Part shown: positions 36,912 to 40,836 of the stretch, piece by piece
Layout of the letters: each line of letters starts with the position of its first letter
Numbering within the stretch: the first letter of the stretch is position 1
Virus record (IMG/VR): IMGVR_UViG_3300038701_003623
Span: 1-41,623 of that record
DNA from: a virus
Direction: 5' to 3' (one strand)
Length of the DNA stretch: 41,623 bases
The notes under the pieces: generated by a model
What the model was told of the DNA's origin: nothing
Seen by the model: only the letters and a program-made list of their open reading frames with translations
Databases searched by the model: none
Position numbers and translations under genes: made by a program

Positions 36912-37111
36912 GGCGGCTTCGCATCAGGCGCCGCCGTCCTCGCCGCATGATCGCGAAGGGCTTGGCGGAGAGCCTTGAGAGCGCGCGTGAGGTCGCGCGG
37001 CGCAAGTCCGTCTGGATGGTCGAGTACCTCCGCGGCCGGCGCCAGCGCGAGGGCTGGCGGGCGCGCCTCGCGCGCCGGCGGCACTTCCTGGAGCGGAGGG
37101 GCGGCGGATGA
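36908..37111 (+). CDS. Arg-rich small protein
   Basis: The 67-residue product is highly basic (VRRLRIRRRRPRRMIAKGL; REGWRARLARRRHFLERRGG). It is coupled on both sides by 4-base overlaps. It may bind nucleic acid. It lies just before the initiator gene. Confidence 0.5.
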   Translation: MRRLRIRRRRPRRMIAKGLAESLESAREVARRKSVWMVEYLRGRRQREGWRARLARRRHFLERRGGG

Positions 37112-38172
37112 GCCATCGCGCGACCAACTGGGCGTTCGAACAGCGCGGCCTCCCGCCGGTGCAGAGCCTCGTGCTGATCCGCCTCGCGGACCACCACAAC
37201 AACGAGCACGGCTGCTTTCCCTCCCAGGCGCTGCTCGCCGAGGAGGTCAACGTCTCCCCGTCGACCCTGAACGAGCACCTCCGGGCGCTCGAGGAGCGGC
37301 GGCTGATCCGGCGCGTGCGGCGACGGGACACCCGCACGCGCCGGCAGCTCGCCACCCGCTACATCTTGGCCTTCGAGGAGCGGCCGGAGGCAGATGGTGC
37401 GGACCCGACTCCGAAATCCGGAGTCGGCTCGGACGACGGTTTGCGTGATGCCGAAGGTGCTGCCGATCGCGCGCCCGAGGCACACGCGGAAGGCGAGCCC
37501 AGCGCCGCCGAGGACGGAGCCGACTCCGGCCAGCCGGACACGGGCCGACTCCGGCCAGCCGGACACGGGCCGACTCCGGATTCCGGGCCGAGCCGACTCC
37601 GGAATTCGGGCAAAGCCGACTCCGGCTGGCCGGAGTCTAAGAACCAGGAAGTTAACCTGGAACTGAACCCACAGGCGCGGGAGCGCGCGAGGGCGGGCGG
37701 GCCCGCGTGCGCGGCGGGTGGCTCAACCTCTGCGGGTGGAGCGCCTGAGGCGGGCGTCGGATTCTCCGAGGAGGATTGGCTGGACCTGCTCGACGCGCTG
37801 CGCATCGACCCCGAGGATCCGCCCGAGTACTGGGCCCGGCGTGCCGCCCGGGCCCATGTCCGGGGCTGGCTGGAGAGGCACGGGCTCACCTTCGCCGAGG
37901 TGCTCGAGGTCGCCCGGGCCTCGGTCCGTCAGCACGGCGGGGCGCCGGACGGGCCCAAGGGGCTGGACCGCGCGGTGCGCCGCGCCGCCAAGGCCCGCCC
38001 GCCGTCGCCGGAGGAGCAGGCGGCGAAGCGCCGGGTGACGCTGGAGCGGACGGCCGAGTGGATCCGCGGCGGCAGGCTGGTGCACCTGGTCTCGGAGCGA
38101 GAGGCCGCGGAGGTCATCGAGGCGGGCCTGATCTCCCGCGAGGAAGCGCGGCGCGCGGGGGTGGTTCGATGA
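37108..38172 (+). CDS. Replication initiator-like protein (lambda O type)
   Basis: The 354-residue product starts with a winged-helix domain (about residues 15-80; LADHHNNEHGCFPSQALLAE; NVSPSTLNEHLRALEERRLI). A low-complexity linker (about 95-215) follows, then a helical C-terminal domain (FSEEDWLDLLDALRIDPEDP; RGWLERHGLTFAEVLEVARA). This resembles phage HTH initiators in which ori lies within the gene. The linker is encoded by the iteron cluster at 37405-37637. No helicase-loader gene (lambda P) follows. Confidence 0.78.
   Translation: MSHRATNWAFEQRGLPPVQSLVLIRLADHHNNEHGCFPSQALLAEEVNVSPSTLNEHLRALEERRLIRRVRRRDTRTRRQLATRYILAFEERPEADGADPTPKSGVGSDDGLRDAEGAADRAPEAHAEGEPSAAEDGADSGQPDTGRLRPAGHGPTPDSGPSRLRNSGKADSGWPESKNQEVNLELNPQARERARAGGPACAAGGSTSAGGAPEAGVGFSEEDWLDLLDALRIDPEDPPEYWARRAARAHVRGWLERHGLTFAEVLEVARASVRQHGGAPDGPKGLDRAVRRAAKARPPSPEEQAAKRRVTLERTAEWIRGGRLVHLVSEREAAEVIEAGLISREEARRAGVVR
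37405..37427 (+). repeat. Isolated ori palindrome
   Basis: CCGACTCCG, five bases, CGGAGTCGG: a perfect 9-bp inverted repeat using the iteron half-site on both strands. It lies 93 bases before the tandem iterons and may be an accessory initiator site. Confidence 0.55.
37520..37637 (+). repeat. Replication-origin iterons
   Basis: CCGACTCCG starts at 37520, 37545, 37570, 37593 and 37616, giving unit lengths 25, 25, 23 and 23. Within each unit a second CCGG-type arm gives dyad symmetry; the last unit contains GACTCCGG-CTGG-CCGGAGTC. Unit lengths are not multiples of three, so the repetition is conserved in DNA rather than in protein. Lambda also places its iterons inside the initiator gene. AT-richer DNA follows. 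Confidence 0.75.
37638..37670 (+). other. AT-richer unwinding segment beside iterons
   Basis: Immediately after the last iteron comes a stretch with CCAGG-AAGTTAA-CCTGG, distinctly richer in A+T than the flanking DNA. Its position fits a DNA unwinding element for origin melting. Confidence 0.45.
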
Positions 38173-39145: not shown

Positions 39146-40836
39146 GGCTGGGGCGGGTGGATTTCGCCGAGGGGCGCTGGGTGATCCGCGAGGCGGCGGG
39201 GCACGTCGCCGTGCGGCTGAAGCGCATGTTCCCGTACATCAAGGGCGGCGCGCGCCCGCCCTTCGTGTTCTCCGACTCCGCGGACGCCGCCGCTGATCTG
39301 GACTGGTTCATGCAGCGCTATCCGCTCGACCTCACGGCGGCGGCGCGCGCCCGGCTCGACGACGGGCTCGCGGCGTGGCGGGATCGGCGCGCGGCGGTCG
39401 AGGCGTTCCGCGCGTCCGGCTGGACGCCTCCGGCGCGCACCGGCTTTCGCGAGCCCGAGGCCCCCATGCCCTACCAGGCGCGAGCGGCGGAGATGGCGCG
39501 GCGGTTCGGCCGGCTTCTGCTGCTGGACGACGTCGGCCTTGGCAAGACGGTCTCGGCCTTGGCGGCGCTGGCGCCGGGCGAGGCGCTGCCCGCCGCGGTG
39601 GTCGTGCAGCCCCATCTCTCGGCGCAGTGGGTGCGCGCCTACATTCAGCGCTTCACCCATCTCCGGGCGGTGGAGATCACGGATCGGCGGGTGGAGCGGC
39701 GCAACGCGCTTCCCGAGGCGGACGTCTACGTGTTCCGCTACTCCAATCTCGGCGCCTGGTCGGACGCGGCGGAGAGCTTCGGCTTCCGGGCGGTGATTTT
39801 CGACGAGGTGCAGGAGCTGCGGCATGGCGACGGCACGGAGAAGGGCCGCGGGGCGCGCGTGTTCGCGGATGCGGTCCGCGCCGGCGGGGGTCTCGTGATG
39901 GGGCTGTCGGCGACCCCCATCTACAACTACGGCTCTGAGATCTTCGCGGTCGTCGATTTGATCGCCCCCGGCGCGCTTGGCACCTACTGGGAGTTCGTCG
40001 CCAACTGGTGCGCGCCGCACGGCAAGCATTGGATCGTCGCCGACCCGCAGGCGCTCGGCTCCTATCTCGAGGAGGAGGGCGTCAGCCTTCGTCGCCGTTC
40101 CGACAGCGCGGAGGTGGCGGCGACGCTGCCGGAGCTGCGCAAGGCGGTGGTGGAGGTCGAGTGGTCAGAGGAGGACGCCGCGTCGGACCGGGCGCTGCAG
40201 CGGCGCCTCGCGGAGCGGGTGGTCAGCGGCTCGTTCACGGATCGCGGGCAGGCGGCGCGCGAGCTGGACCTTCTGGTGCGTCGGGAGACCGGCGTCGCTA
40301 AGGCGGCGAGCGCGGCGGCCTACGCGCGGATGCTGGTCGAGGCGGGAGAGCCGGTACTGTTGGCGGGGTGGCATCGGGACGTCTACGCGCGGTGGGAACG
40401 CCTGCTGGGCGATCTCCGGCCTGCGTGGTTCACGGGATCGGAAAGCGCTGCGGCGAAGCGGGAGTCCGCGCGGCGGTTCGCGGCCGGGGAGACGGATCTG
40501 CTGATCATGTCGCTGCGGTCGGGCGCGGGTCTCGACGGCTTGCAGCACCGGGCGGCGCACGTCGTCTACGGCGAGCTGGACTGGTCGCCGCAGGTGCACG
40601 TTCAGTTCACCGGGCGGTTGCATCGACACGGCCAGACTAGGCCGGTCACCGCGCACTACCTGCACGTTGAGGGCGGGTCGGATCCGGTGCTGCTCGGCGT
40701 GCTCGGACTGAAGGCGTCGCAGTCGGACGGGATCCTCAATCCCTACGGCGACGGGCCGGCGGCGACGCCGGAGGGCGACACGCGAATGCGTCGGCTTGCC
40801 GAGGCCGTGCTGGCGCAGTCGGAGGCCGCGACGTGA
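39142..40836 (+). CDS. SNF2-type DNA helicase/translocase
   Basis: The 564-residue product shows the main SF2/SNF2 motifs: Walker A DDVGLGKT at about 129-136, DEVQ at 221-224, GLSATPIYN near 253, and motif VI GRLHRHGQTRPV near 491-502. It would translocate on DNA, perhaps in replication or recombination, or with the adjacent nuclease and methyltransferase. GTG 39142 overlaps the previous stop; GTG 39136 would add two residues. No DnaB-type helicase is seen elsewhere in the window. Confidence 0.9.
   Translation: MRLGRVDFAEGRWVIREAAGHVAVRLKRMFPYIKGGARPPFVFSDSADAAADLDWFMQRYPLDLTAAARARLDDGLAAWRDRRAAVEAFRASGWTPPARTGFREPEAPMPYQARAAEMARRFGRLLLLDDVGLGKTVSALAALAPGEALPAAVVVQPHLSAQWVRAYIQRFTHLRAVEITDRRVERRNALPEADVYVFRYSNLGAWSDAAESFGFRAVIFDEVQELRHGDGTEKGRGARVFADAVRAGGGLVMGLSATPIYNYGSEIFAVVDLIAPGALGTYWEFVANWCAPHGKHWIVADPQALGSYLEEEGVSLRRRSDSAEVAATLPELRKAVVEVEWSEEDAASDRALQRRLAERVVSGSFTDRGQAARELDLLVRRETGVAKAASAAAYARMLVEAGEPVLLAGWHRDVYARWERLLGDLRPAWFTGSESAAAKRESARRFAAGETDLLIMSLRSGAGLDGLQHRAAHVVYGELDWSPQVHVQFTGRLHRHGQTRPVTAHYLHVEGGSDPVLLGVLGLKASQSDGILNPYGDGPAATPEGDTRMRRLAEAVLAQSEAAT

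Follow-up and report, generated by a model that had tools for sequence, protein, structure and literature searches.

The DNA analysed here, a 41,623-nt stretch of a virus referred to below as the window, very probably carries a theta-type phage origin of replication embedded in the initiator gene; the winged helix of the encoded initiator is predicted from the sequence to recognise it. A first-pass annotation had proposed that the initiator gene contains an iteron origin, and this proposal is supported by conservation of the repeats in 188 of 194 related genes, by covariation of their bases with residues of the helix and the wing, by a low-stability tract and by an anatomy resembling that of phage lambda. 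The sequences themselves show the array, read in three codon phases and conserved in relatives, the covariation of bases with residues, and the low-stability tract.

Initiator gene, iteron array and downstream tract

The initiator combines an N-terminal winged-helix DNA-binding domain with a separate C-terminal domain, and the tandem iterons lie between the two. Its sequence scored 42.4 bits against Pfam HTH_36 (PF13730, cut-off 25), which also matched 27 of 27 aligned relatives. The N-terminal part matched three PHROG families of replication initiation, 270, 391 and 345, with E-values of 2.5e-18, 1.5e-15 and 1.3e-14, the annotations being replication initiation protein (2.5e-18) and O-like (1.5e-15). 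The structure model, built with 27 sequences, comprises a confident winged helix, an unstructured linker (residues ~93–214) and a helical C-terminal domain. Searched with Foldseek, it gave the DnaD N-terminal domain as the best PDB match and MarR-type regulators as the next ones, with weak scores generic for winged helices. Since the array occupies DNA encoding the unstructured linker, it is presumably free to vary without damage to the fold. No DnaB-type helicase or loader gene adjoining the initiator was identified in a non-exhaustive annotation of the window, and the nearby ORFs match dNMP kinase, MT-A70 methylase and SNF2-type helicase. At the other end of the window, the ORF at 767–2173, just upstream of the terminase small subunit, is ParB-like at its N-terminus and matches DNA methyltransferases over most of its length. 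The features of the locus are as follows (evidence in brackets).

37108–38172, + strand: initiator gene, 354 aa (P0001), HTH_36, PHROG replication initiation protein / O-like (ORF, Pfam and PHROG profiles)
37108–37383, + strand: N-terminal winged-helix domain, residues 1–92 (HTH_36 E = 6e-11; high-confidence model; closest PDB fold that of the DnaD N-terminal domain at E = 0.013)
37258–37296, + strand: recognition helix, residues 51–63, with covarying P51 and E56 (model helix, covariation)
37306–37368, + strand: wing, residues 67–87, in which Q80 covaries with iteron base 3 (model strands 67–70 and 84–87, covariation)
37405–37427, no strand: upstream perfect dyad CCGACTCCGAAATCCGGAGTCGG (P1), codon phase 0 (word positions; most representative relatives have a dyad near gene nt 290–370)
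37520–37543, + strand: iteron 1, codon phase 1, an imperfect dyad with 8/10 in the right half and a spacer of 4 (word positions, dyad inspection)
37545–37568, + strand: iteron 2, codon phase 2; its 25-bp unit repeats that of iteron 1 exactly and in tandem (repeat comparison)
37570–37592, + strand: iteron 3, codon phase 0 (word positions)
37593–37615, + strand: iteron 4, codon phase 2 (word positions)
37616–37639, + strand: iteron 5, codon phase 1, an imperfect dyad closing the array, with 8/10 in the right half and a spacer of 4 (most relatives have a spacer of 3)
37626–37680, no strand: candidate DNA-unwinding element with AACC at 37642, 37654 and 37666, a 12-bp period (no 50-mer of the gene is less stable; relatives have their AACC/GTAAG repeats at this position)
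37768–38169, + strand: C-terminal helical domain, residues 221–354, presumed to contact a helicase or loader (model)

The word CCGACTCCG was found on the + strand at 37405, 37520, 37545, 37570, 37593 and 37616 and in inverted orientation at 37419. Exact word positions thus bear out the earlier description of five tandem iterons (37520–37616) with spacing 25, 25, 23 and 23 and an upstream palindromic copy, the 37405/37419 pair forming a perfect 10-3-10 dyad. The 25-bp units at 37519–37543 and 37544–37568 are identical. Outside the initiator gene the whole 41.6-kb window has just one more exact copy, a singleton at 39272. Counted from the ATG at 37108, the codon phase is 0 at 37405 and then 1, 2, 0, 2 and 1, so that all three frames are used. 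Clustering of the 9-mer in the initiator gene (7 observed) exceeded the maximum of 4 obtained in 2,000 synonymous-codon shuffles and 2,000 codon shuffles, and no other 9-mer formed a comparable cluster across the window. A repeat counter tolerating one mismatch was too permissive in GC-rich genes and was therefore abandoned in favour of exact words and fixed-spacing runs.

The AT-richer DNA that the first-pass annotation had noted behind the repeats is indeed there: the 50-mer at 37626, 10 nt past the start of the last iteron, is the least stable in the gene and ranks within the top 0.12% when the entire window is considered. Among the 75 dereplicated genes of the family, 64 have their least stable 50-mer beginning 0–70 nt past the start of the last iteron, against ~8% expected. 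This tract in most relatives consists of AACC/GTAAG repeats, which are translated into DTNPVREPVREP-like peptides through otherwise rare codons (Val as GTA in 69/69 cases versus 4% in the background, Arg as AGA or AGG in 50/62 versus 9%). The downstream repeats of the window diverged from the GTAAG consensus and encode no DTNPVREPVREP-like peptide, and its stretch AACCAGGAAGTTAA also follows the array of the distant Serratia phage Parlo. GC skew, which had been suggested as a check, dips to about 0 at 37.0–37.7 kb and is positive on both sides; the matched genes there are all on the + strand. Its sign does not change lastingly at the locus, and as a test for an origin it is uninformative.

Based on this layout we infer the following order of events. 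The winged-helix domain is predicted to bind CCGACTCCG half-sites in the linker DNA of its own gene, as a dimer on the upstream dyad, the terminal dyad and the tandem iterons, and the bound initiator would build an O-some-like complex. Such a complex would destabilise the adjoining downstream tract of low stability with its AACC repeats; the replicative helicase or its loader would be recruited by the C-terminal domain, for which the disordered linker serves as a tether, so that the locus would act as an origin.

Conservation of the array and its codon phases

A homologous gene is present in eleven Rhodobacter phages and one Labrenzia phage. Scanning of viral contigs with the single protein returned no relative; scans of viral and genome contigs with an alignment query did, and they yielded 194 unique close-family genes, mostly from Rhodobacterales phages and prophages. 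The first-pass annotation had advised comparing iteron number and spacing in related phages, and the repeats are not missing from them: 188 of the 194 genes carry the array in the same place, usually as (25)-23-23, with spacing 23-23 in 110 genes and 25-23-23 in 48. The window is alone among the 194 in its 25-25-23-23. The initiators of the Rhodobacter phage RcC cluster and of Labrenzia phage V1, 35–40% identical to that of the window, have its N-terminal family and embedded array in common. RcDormio (35% protein identity) carries CCGACTCCG copies at the same place of the homologous gene; in the Labrenzia V1 gene the word is CCGTGTCTCA, and the C-terminal domain is also a different one. Helix-turn-helix protein is the only annotation that these genes bear, and iterons go unmentioned in the paper on the RcC phages. 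Neither a description of embedded iterons nor any binding or replication data for this initiator family were found in the open-access literature, subscription journals being mostly outside this coverage.

The 23-bp period shifts the frame with each copy, and relatives with CCGTGTCC read the same word as PCP, AVS and SRV. All three frames are used in 108 of 131 genes of the first set, and the phase order is fixed, 1-0-2 or 0-1-0-2, in 152 of 188 arrays (104 + 48). One word read as different peptides in a fixed order means that selection acts on DNA, as the first-pass annotation had concluded for the single array it described; the word is kept as DNA across frames, 188 of 194 relatives keep the array, and shuffling gave at most 4 copies versus 7. 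That annotation had also noted that the unit sizes sum to 96 and thereby restore the reading frame. The arithmetic is right, but it is not a rule by which the family keeps its frame, since canonical arrays of relatives sum to 71 or 46, unlike the 96 of the window. Relative to the canonical 25-23-23, the window has one extra 25-bp unit, the gap after its upstream dyad is 115 bp (a multiple of three plus 1; 57, 81 or 93 in many relatives) and the spacer of its terminal dyad is 4 rather than 3 as in most relatives. The comparison suggests that the extra unit, the extra base of the gap and that of the spacer make 27 bases modulo codons and so probably keep the downstream frame, the two single bases lying in the gap ahead of the array and in the spacer of the terminal dyad. 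Judged by this comparison, the 96-bp sum is peculiar to the window phage, and in the family it would be bases outside the array that keep the frame.

The exact word occurs 279 times inside the 75 dereplicated genes, 278 times in the linker, and only 3 times in 344 kb of flanking DNA. This confinement counts against an upstream operator, through which the winged-helix protein would repress its own gene with replication starting elsewhere. Initiators often autoregulate, profile and fold searches point to a resemblance of the domain to MarR and other regulators, and some database records name such proteins transcriptional regulators. Nevertheless the copies lie ~300–500 nt inside the gene, and only 1 exact copy turns up in the 500 bp preceding the start across the 75 loci; they are followed by a conserved tract of low stability, and the PHROG assignment is replication initiation, all of which makes the operator unlikely.

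Covariation of protein residues and iteron bases

Covariation was computed on the 75 dereplicated genes with 92 N-terminal residues scanned as predictors. Bases 8 and 5 of the iteron were best predicted by residues 56 and 51, respectively (normalised mutual information 1.0), and base 3 by the wing residue 80 (0.90). Arg56 was accompanied by T at base 8 in 21 of 21 genes, with T8 in 0 of the 54 others, and a residue other than Arg at position 51 (Pro, Val, Ile or Leu) by C at base 5 in 15 of 15, with 0 of 60 among the rest. Among unique genes, Arg80 went with A at base 3 in 34/35 and Gln80 with G in 147/147. Residue 56 predicts iteron bases 8–10. All three residues fall within the modelled recognition helix or wing, and the window obeys the pattern with Pro51-C5, Glu56-CGG and Gln80-G3. 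Residue and base changes were independent about 7 and 5 times by parsimony, and 2 and 1 times on strongly supported branches; as these are few changes on a poorly resolved tree of 80 columns, no significance is claimed after correction for ancestry, and the sign test for independent covariation has low power.

The C-terminal domain resembles that of the window in 50 of the 75 dereplicated relatives. C-terminal groups with no detectable similarity to one another (clusters of 50, 9, 6 and 3, plus singletons) are joined to one winged-helix and origin cassette. We consider it probable that there is a recognition code, in which residue 51 specifies base 5, residue 56 bases 8–10 and wing residue 80 base 3, together with a portable cassette, made up of the winged helix, the array and the unwinding element, to which several unrelated C-terminal domains have been attached. 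If the code is true, each change of specificity would have to occur twice per gene, as protein and as DNA read in three frames, which offers a natural experiment where a protein and its binding site change together in one DNA by specific residue-base pairs.

The same data bear on the possibility that selection on the repeats acts on the encoded peptide, a Pro/Ser/Gly-rich repetitive linker whose repetition in DNA is incidental. The linker is predicted to be disordered, so its composition could drift or expand by slippage, and one 25-bp unit is exactly duplicated. This explanation is nonetheless very improbable: a single word gives unrelated peptides in three frames with the phase order fixed in the 104 + 48 of 188 arrays, the signal is lost in synonymous shuffles, inverted copies make dyads and the word tracks the predicted DNA-contact residues. 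Equally little credence can be given to a partition or packaging site with no origin, for although dyads and tandem copies are also found at centromere-like sites and a ParB-like/methyltransferase ORF is present at 767–2173, the word covaries with the winged helix of its own host gene and the array sits inside an initiator in front of a low-stability tract, as in lambda.

Comparison with known origins

The embedded origin proposed here has its closest parallel in anatomy in lambda, where iterons, each an inverted repeat, occupy the middle of the O gene and are followed by an AT-rich tract (PMC7466680). Passed through the same measures as a control, lambda O gave iteron spacing of 20, 24 and 23, phases 0, 2, 2 and 1, and the least stable 50-mer 22 nt past the start of the last iteron. 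Thus, iterons in mid-gene, several codon phases, inverted repeats and an AT-rich tract are common to both, and since lambda O iterons are likewise out of phase, this property is not new. The window differs in its near-fixed spacing of 23 bp (20–24 bp in lambda), in dyads at both ends and, in relatives, in AACC/GTAAG repeats downstream. Lambda O belongs to Pfam Phage_rep_O (PF04492, 6e-36), whereas the window protein belongs to HTH_36; PF04492 was not among the family matches of P0001, nor did it appear in the 25 best for the 27 aligned relatives, and hhalign detected no sequence relation between the two families. The window would therefore work like lambda O from outside Phage_rep_O.

In phage SPP1 the origin-binding protein gp38 has the direct repeats of oriL and an AT-rich unwinding element within its own gene (PMC6316719), an arrangement that, by description, is like that of the window. 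SPP1 differs from the window in being a phage of Bacillus, in having a second origin and in encoding a loader (gp39) and a helicase (gp40) of its own (PMC6316719). HTH_36 is a listed replication type of small replicons, for instance Paracoccus yeei pYEE7 and pYEE8 (PMC6209633), whose Rep is likened to the window initiator by description through this domain; the word 'iteron' is absent from the text of that paper.

When distant HTH_36 initiators from phages and plasmids of other bacteria were inspected, most proved to have linker repeats of their own, commonly with 21–25 bp spacing and often followed by GAACCAGTCA- or GAACCTGTAA-like repeats; a clear array was absent among them from the Azospirillum plasmid protein and Salmonella SI8. 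Repeats of the AACCAGTCA / AACCTGTAA type follow the array in distant phages and plasmids (L171, L173, L177, L178, L179, L166 and L170) despite wholly different iteron words, and may represent a shared unwinding or helicase-loading element. A Sulfitobacter plasmid initiator has an array of another word, GGGTAAAGTCCCA, in five copies with spacing 24, 25, 22 and 22 (L170:2769–2875), and a DnaB-like helicase gene lies immediately upstream of this initiator. In Microbacterium phage ValentiniPuff three copies of CTGTGGAAA, DnaA-box-like when reversed, lie just past the stop of a short HTH gene (L172:1773–1804). In Paracoccus alcaliphilus plasmid p77023 an IS5-family transposase gene comes almost directly after the HTH domain (L169:2313–3372), which suggests a disrupted initiator. 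Pseudanabaena phage Pam5 shows the start of an initiator-like frame with GGGGTCAGAATGTGACCCC repeats at a place where its record annotates no gene (L176:1501–2104).

The Rhodobacter-type phage initiators examined have no origin marked, and the rule described here locates a probable one inside the gene; it could also supply origin cassettes for alphaproteobacterial vectors. The architecture itself is already known from lambda (PMC7466680) and SPP1 (PMC6316719), and what is new is the family with its stereotyped layout and, as a prediction, its recognition code.
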